A DNA stretch of 64,000 bases from Methanofollis ethanolicus (GTDB taxonomy: Archaea; Halobacteriota; Methanomicrobia; Methanomicrobiales; Methanofollaceae), in assembly GCF_001571385.1 (NCBI RefSeq), contig NZ_BCNW01000001.1, forward strand, positions 1,240,001 to 1,304,000. The letters run 5' to 3'. This document shows, piece by piece, positions 2,878-61,213 of this stretch. Within the stretch, counting starts at the first letter, position 1; the number at the start of each line of letters is the position of its first letter. The position numbers were made by a program, and so were the translations under genes. The notes beneath the pieces were generated by a model. It saw only the letters and a list, made by a program, of their open reading frames with translations, did no database searches and was not told where the DNA came from.

Positions 2878-3209
2878 TGGAGACAAAGCAGTTCGTCGCC
2901 CTCGGAGTCGTCGTTGCCATCCTGATCGGCGTCACCGCCGTCTTCTTTGCCGCGGGCGACCCCGACGGCCTGGAGAGCACGGCCCTTGTCGTCCAGGGCG
3001 TGAAGGAGCTCACCGGCCCCTCCCCTGAAGATGGAGATGCCGAGGCAATCGGTGCCGGCACTTTCGAGTACGAAGCTCCCATGCCCGACTATTCAATGGG
3101 AGAGGACGCCGGCAAGATGGGTGAGGTCATCGCCGTCGTCGTCGGCATCTTCCTTGCCCTGCTCCTCGTCCTCGGTGCCGGCAAGGCAGTCACTGCCTCA
3201 AAACACTGA
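2877..3209 (+). CDS. cbiN: CbiN/NikN-like PDGLE-domain component of the ECF metal importer
   Basis: 110 residues: an N-terminal membrane segment (residues 6-26), the diagnostic PDGLE motif at 29-33, an extracellular loop, and a second membrane segment near 80-102. This is the small accessory subunit needed with CbiM for metal uptake. The start codon overlaps the last base of the cbiM stop codon, giving tight coupling. An oligo-T run at 3219-3226 separates it from cbiO by 33 bases, so transcript levels may step down there. Confidence 0.88.
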   Translation: METKQFVALGVVVAILIGVTAVFFAAGDPDGLESTALVVQGVKELTGPSPEDGDAEAIGAGTFEYEAPMPDYSMGEDAGKMGEVIAVVVGIFLALLLVLGAGKAVTASKH

Positions 3210-3218
3210 CTCTATATC

Positions 3219-3226
3219 TTTTTTTT
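3219..3226 (+). terminator. Oligo-T run between cbiN and cbiO
   Basis: Eight consecutive T residues follow the cbiN stop codon. In archaea oligo-T is sufficient to weaken or end transcription. Whether it reads through into cbiOQ is unknown. Confidence 0.35.
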
Positions 3227-3242
3227 ACCAAACAGGATACTG

Positions 3243-4076
3243 ATGCACATTATCGAGACCCGCAACCTCACCTTCGCCTACCCGAACCGGCCCCCGGCCC
3301 TGAACAACGTGGACTTCATCGCCGGCAGGAAAGCACGGATCGCGGTGATCGGTGCGAACGGCGCGGGAAAGAGCACCCTCTTCAAGCACCTCAACGGCAT
3401 CCTGAAGCCGACGTCGGGCGAGGTGCTCATCCACGGCGAACCCATCACGAAGGCGAACCAGAGGGAAGTGCGCAAGATGGTCGGCATCGTCTTCCAGAAC
3501 CCTGACGACCAGGTCTTCGCGCCGACGGTCGAGCAGGACATCGCCTTCGGGCCGACAAATCTGGGTCTCGACGAGGAGACGATCCACCATCGGGTGGAGA
3601 GCGCAATCCGCCTCCTCGGTCTCGACGAGATGCGCGACCGCCCGCCCCACCAGCTCTCCGGCGGGGAGAAGAAGCGCGTCGCCATTGCCGGCATCCTGGC
3701 CATGGAGCCCCAGGTGCTCGTCCTCGACGAACCGACGGCGGGGCTCGACCCGCAGGGTGTCGCCGACCTCATCTCCTTTATCAACACCCTGCCCGAGCGT
3801 TTCGGCATGACGGTGATCTTCTCCACCCACCACCTCGACCTGGTGCCAGAACTGGCCGACTATGTCTATGTGATGGACCGCGGCACCGTCGTGGAGAAGG
3901 GGACCGTGCCTGAGATCTTCTCGCAGGCCGACCTCCTGACGCGGACCCGCCTCGATATACCGGTGCTCCAGAGGCTGATACGGTCCCTGCGCGAGGCCGG
4001 CGTCTCTCTCGACGAGGGCTACACCTATGCCGAGGTCGAGGCGGCGTTCCTCTCCGCATACCGGGGGAGGCCATGA
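3243..4076 (+). CDS. cbiO: Energy-coupling factor ATPase CbiO
   Basis: 277 residues with all ABC ATPase motifs: Walker A GANGAGKST (37-45), Q-loop FQNPDDQVFAPTVEQDIAFGP typical of CbiO, signature LSGGEKKRVAIAG, Walker B LVLDEPTAGLDP and the switch histidine in STHHLDLV. It powers the CbiMNQ cobalt/nickel importer from the cytoplasmic face. Its TGA overlaps the ATG of cbiQ (ATGA). Confidence 0.95.
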   Translation: MHIIETRNLTFAYPNRPPALNNVDFIAGRKARIAVIGANGAGKSTLFKHLNGILKPTSGEVLIHGEPITKANQREVRKMVGIVFQNPDDQVFAPTVEQDIAFGPTNLGLDEETIHHRVESAIRLLGLDEMRDRPPHQLSGGEKKRVAIAGILAMEPQVLVLDEPTAGLDPQGVADLISFINTLPERFGMTVIFSTHHLDLVPELADYVYVMDRGTVVEKGTVPEIFSQADLLTRTRLDIPVLQRLIRSLREAGVSLDEGYTYAEVEAAFLSAYRGRP

Positions 4077-4885
4077 TCGAGGAACTCTTCGCGATCGAGC
4101 AGGTGGCGCAGGGGACAAGCATGGTCCACCGCTGCGACGCACGAGTGAAGATCCTCATCGTCTTCGCCTTCATCATCGCCACCGTCGCATTCCCGTACAC
4201 GACCGGGGTCTACCTTCCCTGTGCCGTCTTCCTGGCATTCTTCGCGGGCCTCTGGGCACTCTCCCGGATCTCCCCGAAAGAATACTTCAAGCGCCTGCTC
4301 CTGGTCCTGCCCTTCGGCTTCTTCCTCATCGTCTTCCAGATCTTCTTCACCAACCCGCACTACGCCGAGTTTCACCCCCTCGTCCCCCTCCCCCTCGGCA
4401 TCGCGATCTATGCCGAGTCCGTGGAGTTCGCCTCCATCCTCGCGGCAAAGTTCCTGGTCTGCATCTCCTTCATCATCCTGCTCTCGTCCACGACGACGAT
4501 GCAGGGCATGCTCGAAGGTGCCGGGCGCCTCGGCCTCCCGTCCGAGTTCACCCTCATCCTGGGGATGATGATCCGCTATCTCTTCCTCTTCGGGAGAATG
4601 TACGTGCGGGTCAACGCGGCCCTCCAGACCAGATGCTTCGACGCCCTCGACCGTACCCTGCCCCACCGCTACCGCCTGAAGATGCTCGCCTACGAGGTCG
4701 GAACGATCTTCATCAGGTCCTTCGAGCAGGGGGAACGGACCTACACGAGCATGCTCTGCCGCGGCTATGGGAAGGACTCCCGCCTCCTCATCACGAAAAA
4801 ACCGTTGAAGGTGGTCGAATGGGCGTTTCTTGCCGGAACGTTCGCCCTCATCATCGCCACCTCGACCCTTACGTGGCTTGTCTGA
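4073..4885 (+). CDS. cbiQ: ECF transporter transmembrane T-component CbiQ
   Basis: 270 residues with about five membrane segments (near 22-40, 45-65, 75-95, 115-135 and a C-terminal one at 248-268). The cytoplasmic coupling region contains arginine-rich helices, including QGERTYTSMLCRGYG, which fits the A-R-G coupling motif of EcfT/CbiQ proteins. It links the ATPase CbiO to CbiM/CbiN. The start overlaps the cbiO stop. It is the last gene of the cbiMNOQ unit. Confidence 0.93.
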   Translation: MIEELFAIEQVAQGTSMVHRCDARVKILIVFAFIIATVAFPYTTGVYLPCAVFLAFFAGLWALSRISPKEYFKRLLLVLPFGFFLIVFQIFFTNPHYAEFHPLVPLPLGIAIYAESVEFASILAAKFLVCISFIILLSSTTTMQGMLEGAGRLGLPSEFTLILGMMIRYLFLFGRMYVRVNAALQTRCFDALDRTLPHRYRLKMLAYEVGTIFIRSFEQGERTYTSMLCRGYGKDSRLLITKKPLKVVEWAFLAGTFALIIATSTLTWLV

Positions 4886-4962
4886 AGGCGAGGGCACAGA
4901 ATCCGGGGTAGTGCGGGCCCCCCGGTGATACTTTTTTCTGGGAGGAGACCCATCTCCCTTCC

Positions 4963-5271
4963 ATGGAGAGCAAATTCGGCAGAGGCTTTGTGATCCCCCT
5001 GGTGGCGCTCGCCCGGCATGTCTCCCTCCCCCCCGAGCAGGCCTTCTACGGGGCGGCCGACCACCTCGACGAACTGATCGTGCCCGCACAGTTTGCCGGC
5101 ACGCAGGTGGACGCCCTTATCGAGCAGTTGAGAAAGCGCGTCATCTGGCACCAGCCCGGTACGATGGACAGGGAAGACGCCGAGGAGGTCAAAAGAATTC
5201 TCAGGCACCTGCTTGTCGAGGTCGACCGCTCCCTCGGAATCGCCGACCCGCAGGTCGGGACATACGACTGA
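4963..5271 (+). CDS. Small conserved-looking protein of unknown function
   Basis: 102 residues, soluble, with no membrane segment or known motif that I recognise. Codon use (C/G at third positions) is like the neighbours, and the frame is closed by a TGA followed by a T-rich patch, so it is probably a real gene. The ATG at 4963 follows a GGAGGAGACC purine stretch about 20 bases upstream. It lies between the metal importer and gyrB without overlapping either. I assign no function. Confidence 0.65.
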   Translation: MESKFGRGFVIPLVALARHVSLPPEQAFYGAADHLDELIVPAQFAGTQVDALIEQLRKRVIWHQPGTMDREDAEEVKRILRHLLVEVDRSLGIADPQVGTYD

Positions 5272-5338
5272 AACCTTTTTGCCGGGCTGTGATGGCACCC
5301 CCTCCCGGAAAGAGATCGTGTATTTTCGAGTACCTTAA

Positions 5339-9830
<4,492 letters not shown>

Positions 9831-26909: not shown

Positions 26910-28132
26910 GAGTGAGAGGATTTACCCGGCATGGGATATGGACATAGGGTGCTGGACACGGCTCATACATCCGCCATCCCCCCACAACCACCGGGGACTG
27001 CTCCGCTCCCCGACCCCGCTTTAGGATTGGAGAGATGGCAATTTCCCCCGCAGTCTTCTCTTCTCTCTTCCCGGTCCTATCTTGATTTCGGGGGTCCGGG
27101 GGCAACGAGAAAGCCGTCTGGCTTTCGAGGTGCGAACGAAATGAGCATGAGAAAACGGAAAATCGGGCTTTGTAGAAATCCTCCTCCATCGGTTGATAGT
27201 GCGTGCCGATCCTCTGCCTTCCCGTTCGCCGGGGGACTTTTGCCCCCGGACCCCCGCGCGAGGATTGGTCCCGGGAAGAAAGGGTCGGAGTCCTGGAGGA
27301 GGAGGCCATCCCGCCCCCATCTTAATGGCAGGGGGTATGGGAGGGCGACCGACGGGAGTCGAGAAAAACGTAGTTTTTCGAGCGGCAGCCCCCCTGGACC
27401 AGGCACGTCTGAACAGAATTTTTTCCCCTATCACGTCAGGAAGTACTTTCCCACAAGGGTTTACCATGAAAATGATCCCGAAGAACGTCTCTCCGGGTTT
27501 GCACGGAACTCTGACTCTCATCGAGCATCCCCTTTCAGAGATGGGAGGTCCGCATTCTGCCTTCCCGGCCCTATTGCACTGCGGGGGTCCGGGGGCAAAA
27601 GTCCCCCGGCGCGAGCGTGGGGGAAGGCATGTTGACCAGCAGACCACAAAAACAATTTTCATCGCGTATGCTTGAATCCCCCGAGACCCATGCCCGATTC
27701 TCCAGAGCCGAAAATCGAAAATTTTCTCGTTCAGGCACATCCTTGATGTGCACTGAGACGAAGTCTTTGAGCAGTCCCTCGGCGACCTGTACGGGGAAGG
27801 CAGTTGATCGGTATCCCGAGCCGGGGGACTACAGCGAAACCTACGGTTTCTCGAACTCACTGACGCTCGTTCCCCGCTCGGGATAGGGGCGTGATGGTTA
27901 TTTTCCTCCTCAGAATATTCTGTTCACTCTTCTCAGGACCAATCATGAGCGCAGGGAACGACAGAAGTTTTTCGAGGTGCGACCGAAGGGAGCATGAAAA
28001 AGCCGTCTGGCTTTCGAGGATTCCTCTGTTTAGATTGTGGGGACGGTGGGGGTCGGCATCCTGCCCGGCAATATATCCCCAGCAGTGGAGATCGAAACAG
28101 GCCTTCAGCCCCCACCCCCCCCGAAAAAAAGA
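26910..28132. other. Repeat nest without genes
   Basis: About 1.2 kb in which no frame resembles a protein. It contains a MITE family B copy (27166-about 27464), two copies of a GAAAGCC-GTCT-GGCTTTC hairpin with shared TTCGAGGTGCGA flank (27109-27155 and 27970-28016), a GGCACATC-type hairpin at 27734-27751 as seen near 650, several G-run/C-run palindromes (27085-27105, 27580-27610), and a CAATTTTCATCGCGTATGC block (27653-27671) repeated at 48218-48236. Open frames here are chance readings of G+C-rich repeats. Confidence 0.75.
27166..27464 (-). repeat. MITE-like element family B, copy 1 (right end lost)
   Basis: It begins with GGCTTTGTAGAAATCC, the family B terminal repeat. Read in opposite orientation it matches the copy at 56517-56828 over almost its whole length (shared blocks include the GTCCTGGAGGAGGAGGCCAT and CTGGACCAGGCACGTCTGAA stretches). 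The right terminal repeat stops after GGGTTT at about 27464, so the copy is truncated or broken by another repeat. Confidence 0.75.
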
Positions 28133-54550: not shown

Positions 54551-56425
54551 TCACGGGAAAAGCAGGATCGTGACGCCGAGACCGATGAGGTAGGCGAACG
54601 GGTAAAACCATACCATCACCCGGTCGATTCTTTCAGCGACCTCCTTCTGCTCGATAGTGGCGAGCCATTTCAGGTACAGGTTGTAGATCACGACAAGGCC
54701 GCTGACGATGAAGGTGGTGATCAGGACGGAGTCCAGGAAGGTGCGATAGCCGAGGCGCGGCAGGTCGCCTGCGATCGTGAAGTTGAAGGCGATGAAGAGG
54801 AGGAGGTTAGCGCTCGCCACGTCGGCCCTCTTCCCGTAGTCCTTGAGAAGGAAGGTAACCCAGGCAAGGAGGATCAGGATGAAGATCGGGGCGAAGATCC
54901 TGAGGAGATAGTAGGTGAGGTGACGTTGTGCCTCGAAGTCGAAGGAAAAACGGGAGAAAGTGTTCTCGATCCGCGTGGAGGTGACATTGGTCCAGTACCG
55001 TGTGATGTACCACTCCTCCTCGCCGAGCTGGGTACCGACGACGGTCCGCCCCTCCCAGTCGGCATAGAGGAAGTACTCCTCGGGATACAGGGCATCGATT
55101 CTGAGGAAGAAGTGCTGGGTGTCGAAGGGGAAGTTCCGGAAATTGAAGTCAGGCGCCTGGAGGGTCACCCAGAAGCGCTCGAAGTAGGTGGCCGTGCCGT
55201 CGGGGCGGACCTGGATAAGCCTGTTCTGAGTCCAGCGGTTCCCCTGCTGGTTGTTGATGGTGAACTCGGGCCACCGCGTCCCTTCGGCTTTTACGAAGTC
55301 TTCGATGCTCCGGTAGATCTTGGATGAACAGTTGCAGGTGTCCGGGCTGAAGGCGAGGGCCGGGTCTTTCCATGTGAACATGATGTTCGCAACGACGCCG
55401 TAGTTCTCACTCTTCTGGTCGACGCCAGTGATCTGGTCCAGTTCGACGGCGGCCTTCACGATGATGGGCTGTTTTATGACGGTCCTGCCGCCGGGCTCGG
55501 CCGTTCCGGTGAGGACGGCAGGTTCGTTGAGGCCGACGAGGAGGCGGTAGGTGCTGTTTGCCGCGGGGTCGGCCGCAGGATGGCGAAGGACGGTCAGTCT
55601 GCTGCCGCCGGTCTCCGAGTCGGCGGTGTACTGGAGAGAGGCGTTTTTCCCTGGTGCGAGGAGGTTGGCGCTCCTGACGGGTTTGTCGCCATAGTCGGAG
55701 AGGACGAGAATGGGGGCGATGTCGTCAGCGGGTGTCTCGATGTAGGCATAGATGGTGTCGCCGGGGAGGAGGTCGGTGAGGATGTAGAAGGTGGAGGTCT
55801 TATTCTCCGAGAGGGTGCCCGTCACCTCGGCCACCCCGACGCGGCCAGTCAGTCTGTCGGGAACGGCGATCTCGGCCCCTTCCGTGGGCGGTGTGCCGGG
55901 CTGGGCGTTGATTCCGACGGTGAGGGTATAATCCCCGAAGGTGTCCGCCGTTGGTGTGCCGGCGGCGAGGAGGACGTAGTCGCCGCTCTCCGGCACATCC
56001 CAGGTGAGGGAGGCGGCATACCCGGTGCCTCTGTCGTCGTCCCAGGCATAGAAGAGTTCGTCGGCGATCGCGGGAATGGCGACCAGGGGGTCTGTCGCAC
56101 CGGCGAGGGCCGTCTCGACCGTCCGGTTGTACCTCTCCCTGAATCCTTCCTCCAGCACTTCAGGCCCGCCGATGGCAACGAAGGGGTCGAGATTCCCGGA
56201 GGTGCCGTTCATCACCACCGTGAGGGTGTCGCCGGCCTCAAGGTCGGGGAGGGTGTAGATGGCGATCGCGTCGTTCTCGATCGTGCCGGTGAGGACCTGG
56301 ATCTCGCCGCTGCCATCTGCAGGGGCGCCCATGGCTGGGGGGACTGTCAGAAGAGCAAGGACCGCGGCAAGGCAGAAAATGATACTGCGTATGGCCCTCA
56401 GGTCGGCCGCGATACCCCCTGTCAT
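54551..56425 (-). CDS. Predicted pentameric ligand-gated (Cys-loop-like) ion channel with N-terminal PPC-like domains
   Basis: 624 residues. A signal peptide (about 1-33) is followed by two similar pre-peptidase C-terminal-like beta domains (about 45-172 and 192-300; both end in a [YT]..LLVG-like strand) and a ligand-binding beta-sandwich (about 317-500) that contains FPFDTQ at 432-437, the invariant loop of the family. Four membrane helices follow: M1 505-527, M2 533-553 (pore-lining, with NLLLFIAFNFTIAGDLP), M3 562-585, M4 601-623. The two disulfide cysteines of the eukaryotic loop are absent, as in bacterial channels. Such channels are rare in archaea. The ligand is unknown. Confidence 0.82.
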   Translation of the reverse strand: MTGGIAADLRAIRSIIFCLAAVLALLTVPPAMGAPADGSGEIQVLTGTIENDAIAIYTLPDLEAGDTLTVVMNGTSGNLDPFVAIGGPEVLEEGFRERYNRTVETALAGATDPLVAIPAIADELFYAWDDDRGTGYAASLTWDVPESGDYVLLAAGTPTADTFGDYTLTVGINAQPGTPPTEGAEIAVPDRLTGRVGVAEVTGTLSENKTSTFYILTDLLPGDTIYAYIETPADDIAPILVLSDYGDKPVRSANLLAPGKNASLQYTADSETGGSRLTVLRHPAADPAANSTYRLLVGLNEPAVLTGTAEPGGRTVIKQPIIVKAAVELDQITGVDQKSENYGVVANIMFTWKDPALAFSPDTCNCSSKIYRSIEDFVKAEGTRWPEFTINNQQGNRWTQNRLIQVRPDGTATYFERFWVTLQAPDFNFRNFPFDTQHFFLRIDALYPEEYFLYADWEGRTVVGTQLGEEEWYITRYWTNVTSTRIENTFSRFSFDFEAQRHLTYYLLRIFAPIFILILLAWVTFLLKDYGKRADVASANLLLFIAFNFTIAGDLPRLGYRTFLDSVLITTFIVSGLVVIYNLYLKWLATIEQKEVAERIDRVMVWFYPFAYLIGLGVTILLFP

Positions 56426-57003
56426 GGGGAGAAGATACTGGAAGCGATATTAAAATCTATCCCCCTGCAGGGATCAGAAGGGATCGAAGACCCTCGGAAG
56501 AGAAAAATGATTTATCGGCTCTGTAGAAACCCTTGCGGGAAAGTACTTCCTGAAGTGATAGGGGGAAAAATTCTGTTCAGACGTGCCTGGTCCAGGGGGG
56601 CTGCCGCTCGAAGACCTCATGGTCTTCTCACGGTCGCTATCGCTCCCTCCTCCCAGACCCCCTGCCATTAAGATCGGGGCAGGGATGGCCTCCTCCTCCA
56701 GGACTCCGACCCTTTCTTCCCGGAACCAATCCTCGCGCGGGGGTCCGGGGGCAAAAGTCCCCCGGCGAACGGGAAGGCAGAGGATCGGCACGTACTATCA
56801 ACCGATGGAGGAGGATTTCTACAGAGCCGATTTATCTTTCCTTTCTGCCGATAGAATCGTGGATTCCCGCCTTTTCAGACCTGAGATTTCCAGAAACCAC
56901 AATGAAGACAAACCAAGACGGATCCTGATTCCTGCACTATTCTCAAGGTATATGTAGGGGGGCGACCCGATCACTCCATTGTGGTAAAAAGGGAGTGCTA
57001 AAA
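56426..57003. other. Gene-free region holding MITE family B copy
   Basis: About 580 bases without a gene. MITE family B occupies 56517-56828. The remainder is moderately A+T-rich, with TATA-like ATATGT before the GTAAAAAGGGAGTG ribosome site of the gene at 57004. Confidence 0.6.
56517..56828. repeat. MITE-like element family B, full copy with 8-bp target duplication
   Basis: 312 bp. Terminal inverted repeats GGCTCTGTAGAAACCC (left) and GGATTTCTACAGAGCC (right). It is flanked by GATTTATC on both sides (56509-56516 and 56829-56836), a perfect 8-bp target duplication. It matches the 27166 copy in reverse orientation. Confidence 0.92.
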
Positions 57004-58857
57004 ATGACAGATACGCACGAAAAGGACAAAGTGGTCTTTGCAGCGACAATGGCCGCGACCTTCGAACCTGACTCGATGACCAACGACAAACTTGAGGCTG
57101 CGACGAAAGGGCATGGCTCTCTTGTCATTCCGGTCTTTGCAGCCGCAAACTCGATTGCCGAGGATCTGTTCTGTTCGGTCGCCGGGCCAGAGATGTCCCT
57201 GATGGGACGCATGACCGTCGTCGACGCCTCGGCCGGGGAACTGCCTCTGGACATGGTCGTCGAAAAAGCGGTCAGGGCGGCGATGAACGCCGGGGCCGAA
57301 CCGGCCAACGCCGCTCTCATCGTGGCATCTCTGGCATACTTCTCGGGTTCCTGCGCCAGGTCGGGTGTGCCGCTCGGCAACAGGAAACTCGGGGCAATCG
57401 CGCGGATCCACGCGGGTGCGGCACGGACAAGCGCGATCGCCCTCGTCACCGGCAAGTCCACCCACAGGATCCAGGCGTTTCCGGCCTATCAGGCGATCTA
57501 TCAGGCATTGATGGACAAAAAACTCACCCGTGTCGACGGCTCCATCCTCCCGCCCTTCATATCGGGAGGGACGATCTACGGCCACTCGGCCCTGGGTGAG
57601 GACTACAACATCCCTGAACTTGCTTACAACGCCGCAAAAGTTGGCACCGAGGCGATGATGAAGAGCATGGCCGGTGCCGGCATCACCCCGCTCGCCCTCT
57701 GGCCGGCCCTCATCGGTGCTGCGGTCACCATGGAGATCGTCCACCCGGACGCCATCCTCGGTGAAGAGTTCGGAAAATTCGGCCGCGTCGACTCGTCCTA
57801 TCTCGCGGGCAAAGGCGCCAGGGACGCGGCGCACCTGCCTGAAAAACTCCATATCAGGGGGACGCACGAGGAGTACGACACCGCCAAGGTGATCGGCGAC
57901 TTCGGGCTGATCCTCAAGGACATCGGCGGCCCCTCGGTCATCGGGTCGATGGCATTATCAGAGATCTTTGCCGCCTTCGAAGAGTCGGCATCGATAGGAG
58001 CCGGATTCTCTGGCGGCCCGGTGAACCCACCCCTCGGTCACCTCGAGGGCGACTGTGTCCCGGCCCTCAGGCTCCTCTTCCAGCACAACGGCGATGTCTT
58101 TGCCGTTGCGGAGGCGATCCGCGACTACAAGATGAATTCCTTCATCGATCCAGAGATGGCCCTCTGCGGCCTCAACACCATTGCCAGGAAGGCCGAACAG
58201 GTGACCCGCGGCAAGGTCACGAAGGCCTGTATCCTCGCCTCCGAGGGAGTGCGGGACAGGGCGATCTATCGTCGGGCCGCCCACACCTACGATATCATAA
58301 CAGGAGGAAAGACCGTCGCCGACGCCACCCGCATCCTCGACGAGGAAAGACAGGCCTATGTCGAAAAGCGGGGTTCTGCGATACTTTCGGCATTCACCGG
58401 CCGAAAGATCGTCTTGAAGTTCACCGAGATCAAGGCTCACGGCCGCCGGACCGACAAGTTCACAGCACGATACTGGGGTTTTGACTCCAATGTCTCGTAC
58501 GACGTTGCCATCGACGGAAAGACGTACCACGTCGAGAACCTCAGCGGAAAAGAGGTGCCCGACTTCGCCCTGAAGGGGAAGAACCGCGACAATCCTGACT
58601 GGCCGATTGCCCTCTTCTGTGGCGCCGTGCTGACGCAGGAACTCCAGTACATCGGGCACACGATCATCAACATCACCGTGCCCGCGGCGGTCGCGAGTCT
58701 CGTCGGGATGGATGCGAAGGACGCCGCCGTCGGCGCTGAAGACGGGGCTTTCCTGACCCGCGCCATCCCGGGCGCCGGCGAGAAGGCTTTCGAGGTGGCA
58801 AAACTCGCACAGCAGGTGTATACAAAGATCAACGAACCGTTCCCGCCCGAAGCATGA
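57004..58857 (+). CDS. Conserved-looking 617-residue protein of unknown function, coupled to larC-like gene
   Basis: 617 residues, no signal peptide or clear membrane segment. The N-terminal half is alanine/glycine-rich (VIPVFAAANSIAED, GAARTSAIALVTGKSTHRIQAFPAYQ). The middle contains FISGGTIYGHSALGEDYNIPEL and GPSVIGSMALSEIFAAFEESASIGAGFSGGPVNPPLG, and the end has GHTIINITVPAAVASLVGMDAKDAA. I do not recognise a family. The start follows GGGAGTG. Its TGA overlaps the ATG of the LarC-like gene, which suggests a shared function, perhaps in nickel-organic cofactor metabolism (inferred only). Base and codon use are like the rest. Confidence 0.75.
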   Translation: MTDTHEKDKVVFAATMAATFEPDSMTNDKLEAATKGHGSLVIPVFAAANSIAEDLFCSVAGPEMSLMGRMTVVDASAGELPLDMVVEKAVRAAMNAGAEPANAALIVASLAYFSGSCARSGVPLGNRKLGAIARIHAGAARTSAIALVTGKSTHRIQAFPAYQAIYQALMDKKLTRVDGSILPPFISGGTIYGHSALGEDYNIPELAYNAAKVGTEAMMKSMAGAGITPLALWPALIGAAVTMEIVHPDAILGEEFGKFGRVDSSYLAGKGARDAAHLPEKLHIRGTHEEYDTAKVIGDFGLILKDIGGPSVIGSMALSEIFAAFEESASIGAGFSGGPVNPPLGHLEGDCVPALRLLFQHNGDVFAVAEAIRDYKMNSFIDPEMALCGLNTIARKAEQVTRGKVTKACILASEGVRDRAIYRRAAHTYDIITGGKTVADATRILDEERQAYVEKRGSAILSAFTGRKIVLKFTEIKAHGRRTDKFTARYWGFDSNVSYDVAIDGKTYHVENLSGKEVPDFALKGKNRDNPDWPIALFCGAVLTQELQYIGHTIINITVPAAVASLVGMDAKDAAVGAEDGAFLTRAIPGAGEKAFEVAKLAQQVYTKINEPFPPEA

Positions 58858-60097: not shown

Positions 60098-61213
60098 TCA
60101 TTCTCCCTCACCAGAGCAGAGCACCGCCCACCGTGTCGTGAGGTACCCGGCGATGGTAGCGACGGCGACGGCCGGCACGACGGTCCACTGCATGATGACC
60201 ATCACCACGAGGAGGACGACCACCCAGGGGGCCTTCAGCACCGCGACGGTCATGCCGGCCATGGCGGCGGGGACGGTGATGGCGAGGGGGACGGCGGGGA
60301 CGAGGAGGTTTACGGCCATGCCAAGGGTGCCGCCGGCGAAGAAGAGGGGGAAGACAGGGCCGCCCTTGAAGACGGTGGCCATGCACCAGGTGCTGGCGAG
60401 GATCTTGACGCCGACGAGGGCGAGTAGCATGAGGCCGCCCAGCGCCGCACCGCTGGCGAGGACTTCCCTGAACTCGGTCTGGCCGGAGAAGAGGACGACG
60501 GGGGTGATGGTCCCGAGGATGCCGAGGCCGACGCCCCCGATCACGCCCCTGAGGAGGTGGCGGCCGGCGAGGGGGGAGAAAAGACGGTGGAAGACGTGGT
60601 AGGCGGCGATGAAGGCGACGCCGGCGGCGCCGCCGACGATGCCGAGGGCGGCGGCGGCGACGAGGTCGAGGAGGGCGAACGCGTACGGCGGGACGGGGTA
60701 GAGGGCGCCGGCAGGGCCGGTGAGGATGACGTAGACGCCGAACCCCACGAGGCTCCCGAGAATGCCGGCCGTCGAGAGGTCACGCACCCGCGTTGCCATG
60801 CCCCGCATGCGCTCGCCGGCCGCGGTGCCCATGCCGCCGCCGAGGTCGATGGCGGCAACCTCGGGCCCGAGGCTTGCGCCGGCGATGAGGGAGAGGTAGA
60901 CGGCGAGGAGGGCAACGGGAAGGTGGGCGGGCTCGAACCTCCCGGACTTCCGGAACTCCGCGATCGTCTCCTGGAGGAGGCCCACGTGGTCCCCGAAGAG
61001 GTGGAGGCAGAGACCGACAGCCAGCCCTCCGGCGGTGGCGACGATGAGGGTGAAGAAGGGGAGAGGCGGCTGGTCCTGCCAGACCAGTGTCGTTCCCACG
61101 CTCTGCACCGCGAGGAAAATCACCATCGCTCCTCCGGCGGCCACGGCGAGGATGACGGCGACGAGGACGAACCGCAGGGACTCTCTGACGGTGACGGGAT
61201 CGTATGGTGTCAT
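60098..61213 (-). CDS. ClC-type chloride channel/antiporter homolog
   Basis: 371 residues, about 10 membrane segments. GASLGPEVA corresponds to the GxGxxxPE-like first selectivity segment (with GASLGPE), and FKGGPVFPLFFAGGTLGMAVN to the GGxFxPxLxxGAxxG segment. It is shorter than classical ClC proteins (about 420-460 residues) and lacks C-terminal CBS domains. The glutamate of the gate (GPE) is kept, which favours exchange. It stands alone and its ion is not certain. Confidence 0.85.
   Translation of the reverse strand: MTPYDPVTVRESLRFVLVAVILAVAAGGAMVIFLAVQSVGTTLVWQDQPPLPFFTLIVATAGGLAVGLCLHLFGDHVGLLQETIAEFRKSGRFEPAHLPVALLAVYLSLIAGASLGPEVAAIDLGGGMGTAAGERMRGMATRVRDLSTAGILGSLVGFGVYVILTGPAGALYPVPPYAFALLDLVAAAALGIVGGAAGVAFIAAYHVFHRLFSPLAGRHLLRGVIGGVGLGILGTITPVVLFSGQTEFREVLASGAALGGLMLLALVGVKILASTWCMATVFKGGPVFPLFFAGGTLGMAVNLLVPAVPLAITVPAAMAGMTVAVLKAPWVVVLLVVMVIMQWTVVPAVAVATIAGYLTTRWAVLCSGEGE

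Follow-up and report, generated by a model that had tools for sequence, protein, structure and literature searches.

A DeCLIC-type pentameric ligand-gated ion channel gene in Methanofollis ethanolicus, one of an archaeal family that is probably calcium-controlled

The window analysed here is a stretch of 64,000 nucleotides from the near-complete Methanofollis ethanolicus genome, where it occupies 1.24-1.30 Mb on a contig of 2.7 Mb. On its minus strand it carries a gene for a pentameric ligand-gated ion channel (pLGIC), a family of five-subunit ion channels related to human nerve-signal receptors. The gene and the main regions of its product are as follows.

54551..56425, minus strand: pLGIC gene of the DeCLIC type, 624 aa, ATG start, open frame without internal stop
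56449..56456, minus strand: predicted TATA box ATTTTAAT, -31 to -24 from the ATG, kept in four Methanofollis orthologues
56327..56425, minus strand: Sec-type signal peptide, residues about 1-33, predicted from sequence
55898..56314, minus strand: first N-terminal domain, NTD1, residues about 38-176, 39% identical to DeCLIC NTD1 in the alignment with DeCLIC
55517..55876, minus strand: second N-terminal domain, NTD2, residues about 184-303, a homologue of NTD1, 28% identical to DeCLIC NTD2 in the same alignment
54917..55480, minus strand: canonical ligand-binding or extracellular domain (ECD), residues about 316-503, from Pfam and the DeCLIC alignment
54554..54916, minus strand: four-helix transmembrane domain (TMD), residues about 504-624, from PDB alignment

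The initial annotation had given this reading frame its exact span, and had correctly recognised a signal peptide, two beta domains (which align with DeCLIC NTD1 and NTD2) and four membrane helices. The four Methanofollis orthologues share the box, 24-31 bases ahead of the ATG, and diverge upstream of it, a pattern that fits a leaderless archaeal transcript, and the mRNA is predicted to be leaderless or near-leaderless. Pairwise dN/dS values for the channel gene against three relatives in the genus are 0.17, 0.19 and 0.20, and are lowest within the ECD and TMD, indicating purifying selection. Contamination is unlikely as a source of the gene, which lies 1.29 Mb inside the 2.7-Mb contig and is also present in sister genomes; a search for plasmid or phage relatives of the channel found none, so there is no sign of a mobile-element carrier. 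The Neur_chan_LBD model (PF02931) has only one match in the 2.7-Mb genome, and a homopentamer is therefore expected.

Assignment to the family is supported by both profile and structure searches. The initial annotation had read the C-terminal half as a Cys-loop channel and had proposed an HMM search and an alignment of the pore helix as checks; PF02931 matches residues 317-491 (E=7.9e-13, 48.8 bits vs a curated cut-off of 26), and the FPFDTQ Pro-loop occupies residues 432-437. The Pfam transmembrane model, PF02932, stays under its cut-off in the window protein (best E=1.4e-5 among relatives). In a search of the PDB the top match is DeCLIC (6V4A), which aligns over query residues 31-614 (E=3.5e-128), followed for the core alone by sTeLIC over 318-622 (E=5.7e-84). 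GLIC and ELIC, which like the animal Cys-loop receptors share the superfamily plan by homology and have no DeCLIC-type NTD, match much more weakly (E about 1e-20). Alignments with DeCLIC, sTeLIC and GLIC extend into M4, making the four-helix TMD homologous to those of solved channels. An AlphaFold2 prediction from a two-sequence input was poor (pLDDT 39.5), so the fold and pentamer of the archaeal channel rest on homology.

By these alignments the window protein is a full-length homologue of DeCLIC, the channel of a Desulfofustis deltaproteobacterium (PDB 6V4A, 9EV8), with both extra N-terminal domains included and the same NTD1-NTD2-ECD-TMD order along its whole length. Identity is 39% in NTD1, 28% in NTD2, 45% in the ECD and 48% in the TMD, NTD2 being the most diverged region; the archaeal host is a further difference. 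The comparison with DeCLIC made in the initial annotation was thus apt as far as it went but understated, since the likeness extends well beyond an N-terminal domain, and the architecture it called unusual is one already known from DeCLIC. Archaeal pLGICs have themselves been known since 2004: a Methanosarcina pLGIC with extra N-terminal sensory domains was described by Tasneem et al. 2004 (PMC549065), although its N-terminal architecture, given as MCP-N plus Cache, is unlike the NTD1-NTD2 arrangement seen here. DeCLIC has been described as the sole pLGIC with an NTD that is even partly characterised (PMC12664993). A literature search of incomplete coverage turned up no description of a DeCLIC-type channel from a methanogen.

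NTD1 is a homologue of NTD2 (hhalign probability 99.2, E=2.7e-19). A profile built from eleven archaeal relatives, using their N-terminal 273 residues, has DeCLIC (6V4A) as its sole significant match in the PDB (E=2.6e-60), and across the class its full matches are confined to channel-bearing genomes, with one partial extra match (G022). This distribution indicates that the NTD belongs specifically to the channel. The initial annotation had described these domains as pre-peptidase-like and had suggested that they bind a polymer or a cation. The structural literature lends the first description some substance, in that the NTD lobes of DeCLIC are reported to resemble the collagen-binding domain of collagenase and the accessory domain of the subtilisin Tk-SP (PMC12664993), and there is weak similarity to the Pfam PPC model (PF04151); the window NTD nevertheless scores 12.5 bits against a cut-off of 25.9 (E=0.29), and the best of 20 relatives (E=0.0046) is still under the cut-off. 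The same resemblances could be taken to mean that the NTDs bind a polymer or surface component, such as an S-layer glycoprotein or polysaccharide, in an adhesion- or stretch-linked channel. We consider this very improbable: a Pfam-level domain search found no carbohydrate-binding family in the NTD, and the best-conserved acidic features of the NTD are calcium ligands, which supports the cation half of the earlier suggestion, whereas no evidence was found for the polymer half.

Channels of this type are patchily distributed in archaea but are not rare. Orthologues occur in 9 of the 12 genomes of the genus, and PF02931 in 28 of the 232 genomes of the class (7 of 40 genera), about one in eight, which contradicts the 'few archaeal cases' of the initial annotation. 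All but one of these genomes (27/232) hold the NTD too. In most class members the frame is open over about 620-690 aa, and one orthologue (G007) is divided between two contigs. Another (G097, L093) is split across two frames, and L125/L129 (G542) are likewise split or carry a stop; these may be recent pseudogenes or assembly errors. Beyond the class, the phylum sample contains three more full-length orthologues (G461, G307, G384), and other genomes encode short, distant pLGICs without an NTD. Patchy occurrence is a general trait of prokaryotic pLGICs (PMC549065, PMC4795631). In a tree of the core, the main archaeal NTD-bearing group (27 rows) holds together with support of 99/100. DeCLIC, sTeLIC and the G384/G307 pair branch without confidence, the archaeal grouping receiving 94/67 with alternatives not rejected, so any transfer between the two domains of life could have run either way, and sTeLIC may or may not have lost an NTD. 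A single-protein search of genome contigs returned one relative only, and the bacterial comparison consists of DeCLIC and sTeLIC.

The following positions were aligned with residues that bind calcium in DeCLIC. Conservation counts refer to 29 archaeal orthologues, and DeCLIC numbering was checked against the published residue letters.

56186..56188, minus strand: D80, equivalent to DeCLIC D76, calcium Site 1 ligand, Asp in 29/29
56033..56038, minus strand: D130-D131, equivalent to DeCLIC D123-D124, calcium Site 1 ligands, Asp in 29/29
55406..55408, minus strand: E340, equivalent to DeCLIC E347, calcium Site 3 ligand in the beta1-beta2 loop, 28/29 (one Gln)
55013..55021, minus strand: E469-E471, equivalent to DeCLIC E479-E481, loop F acidic cluster at the calcium fenestration, 29/29

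In DeCLIC, the side-chain ligands of NTD calcium Site 1 are D76, D123 and D124 (PMC12664993). Among the 19 acidic DeCLIC positions in NTD1, exactly these three never vary in the 29 orthologues; three positions drawn at random would be exactly these with odds of 1 in 969, which is approximate given that the sequences are related and the columns not independent. Further Site 3/4 positions (DeCLIC numbering) are equally constant in archaea, with P434, L477 and G478 each found in 29/29. The ECD cluster formed by E347 and E479-E481 is absent from the eight distant archaeal pLGICs aligned, which have no NTD, and so marks the DeCLIC/sTeLIC group.

Because all the calcium sites of DeCLIC are conserved, calcium inhibition is the likeliest behaviour of the archaeal channel, and with reasonable though far from full confidence we propose a homopentameric cation channel that extracellular Ca2+ keeps closed, as in DeCLIC. 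What the analysis shows is homology, domain architecture, a single copy of the gene, constancy of the named residues and purifying selection; the fold, pentamer, conductance, cation selectivity and calcium inhibition would follow by extension from DeCLIC. Five copies of the gene product would make up a cation-selective pLGIC whose two jelly-roll-type N-terminal domains and ECD lie on the outer side of the membrane. Extracellular Ca2+ would stabilise the closed state by binding at Site 1 in NTD1 and at Site 3, where the beta1-beta2 loop meets loop F at the interface of ECD subunits; a drop in outside Ca2+ would loosen the NTD and release the interfacial glutamate cluster, and the M2 pore could then open to monovalent cations. 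For DeCLIC itself, oocytes show cation currents once calcium is depleted; bound at the interfacial site, the ion has been proposed to block a lateral ion path, and it stabilises the NTD (PMC9897478, PMC12664993).

The main rival to calcium inhibition is gating by pH, in the manner of sTeLIC, or by an organic ligand, namely a small organic acid bound at a vestibular or intersubunit site; calcium would then have only a structural or modulating part. Conservation of the calcium sites could indeed be structural, and the authors of the DeCLIC studies could not distinguish a functional from a structural role for the interfacial site; their cryo-EM structures without calcium were still closed, and an additional signal may be required (PMC9897478/PMC12664993). 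The tubeworm-symbiont channel sTeLIC (PDB 6FL9), which alkaline pH activates and a cinnamate in the vestibular site potentiates, belongs to the same core group as the archaeal channels and shares the E347 equivalent, the loop F EEE and the 2' Asp, so that a channel with these residues can also respond to another trigger. In its core the archaeal channel resembles sTeLIC (ECD 41%, TMD 49% identity) almost as much as DeCLIC. sTeLIC differs, however, in having no NTD, and hence no NTD Site 1, no CxC, and replacements at R397-W398 and K369, the first pair being a vestibule-loop feature invariant across NTD-bearing channels. On balance we regard a pH or organic-ligand trigger as unlikely, though a serious competitor to calcium inhibition.

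The pore, vestibule and cysteine positions on which these comparisons draw are listed below.

54779..54841, minus strand: M2 pore region with acidic rings D529 and D535 (2') and hydrophobic gate L542 (9') and F549 (16'), from the DeCLIC alignment
55232..55237, minus strand: R397-W398, equivalent to DeCLIC R406-W407, vestibule, 29/29, different in sTeLIC
55328..55336, minus strand: C364-x-C366, equivalent to DeCLIC C371/C373, ECD, sole cysteines of the mature protein, 26/29 archaea

In the pore helix, D529 (DeCLIC D541) is invariant in 29/29 archaea, and D535, which replaces the Glu of DeCLIC (E547), is Asp in 21 and Glu in 8 and thus acidic in all 29. From M2 numbering, these would be the two acidic rings described at the cytoplasmic pore mouth and associated with cation selectivity (PMC9897478). 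The DeCLIC constrictions at 9' Leu and 16' Phe are kept as L542 and F549. In the vestibule, W407 of DeCLIC was reported to turn inward when Ca2+ is absent (PMC9897478/PMC12664993), and the archaeal channels have the same Trp. Three core positions alone, K369, R397 and W398, are identical in DeCLIC and all 29 archaea yet changed in sTeLIC, a comparison with a single NTD-less channel that suggests the vestibule Trp goes with possession of an NTD.

The CxC pair of the ECD is likewise common to DeCLIC and the archaeal channel and absent in sTeLIC, and both cysteines are missing together in a three-genome clade (G001/G003/G006); the DeCLIC studies consulted make no mention of a cysteine or disulfide in it. 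Sole cysteines that are kept in 26 of 29 archaea and lost jointly could form a disulfide or metal site, through which the channel would respond to redox conditions or a thiophilic metal besides calcium, a reading made plausible by the anaerobic life of both the DeCLIC host, a sulfate reducer, and the methanogens. The two cysteines could equally be reduced, or joined in a disulfide that serves structure alone, and the clade that lost it belongs to the same genus and has no other change that we noticed; we therefore hold such sensing to be improbable. Distinctly improbable as well is a receptor channel with two inputs, extracellular calcium (at Site 1 and the ECD fenestration) and a redox or metal signal at the CxC. 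If it were true, the CxC would provide the extra cue that DeCLIC apparently requires in order to open.

No fixed operon partner was found, the immediate neighbours not being conserved across the channel family loci. At ten loci from relatives in one family, an AI-2E family transporter gene (short in one) lies directly upstream on the same strand with a gap of 9-165 bases (L072, L073, L075, L084, L085, L087-L091), and is a possible operon partner of the channel in that family; none was seen near the window channel gene. Genes for ion transport (ClC, TrkA/TrkH, P-type ATPase) recur near channel loci; we give these raw occurrences no weight. A ClC-family channel/transporter gene occupies 60098-61213 of the window, about 4 kb from the pLGIC gene, and a ClC homologue directly adjoins the orthologue in L002 and L065. 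In one Methanofollis MAG (L067, the same as L002) a P-type ATPase gene at 2905-5610, just downstream of the orthologue, is nearest to calcium pumps of the PMR1 type (E=2.5e-161, under the equivalog cut-off). On the upstream side in the window, a 620-aa ORF at 56995-58857, without a match in Pfam or NCBIfam, overlaps the start of the gene for LarC (nickel pincer cofactor). A dispersed element of about 310 bp (56527-56833) lies about 100 bp upstream of the channel start codon and is 92% identical to 27160-27462 of the window. Close to its ends is the 14-mer TTTCTACAGAGCCG, of which the genome contains 20 exact copies (0 for the reversed control), some of them inverted pairs; this suggests that the element is MITE-like.

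What makes the finding valuable is how large the archaeal set is and which features it reveals as invariant, the window channel being one of a whole archaeal family of DeCLIC-type channels that is probably calcium-controlled. Studies of DeCLIC have left open the importance of the calcium sites, of the vestibule Trp and of the lateral fenestrations, and the need for a second signal. To these questions the 29 natural orthologues offer an evolutionary answer: all of them have the Site 1 ligands of the NTD, R406-W407, the glutamates of loop F and acidic residues at both pore rings, and nearly all have the CxC. The physiological role is a matter of speculation, perhaps the sensing of divalent cations or ionic conditions outside the cell. 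The archaeal orthologues are new proteins in which to seek an open structure, and a methanogen genus with and without the channel makes a comparison of presence and absence possible.
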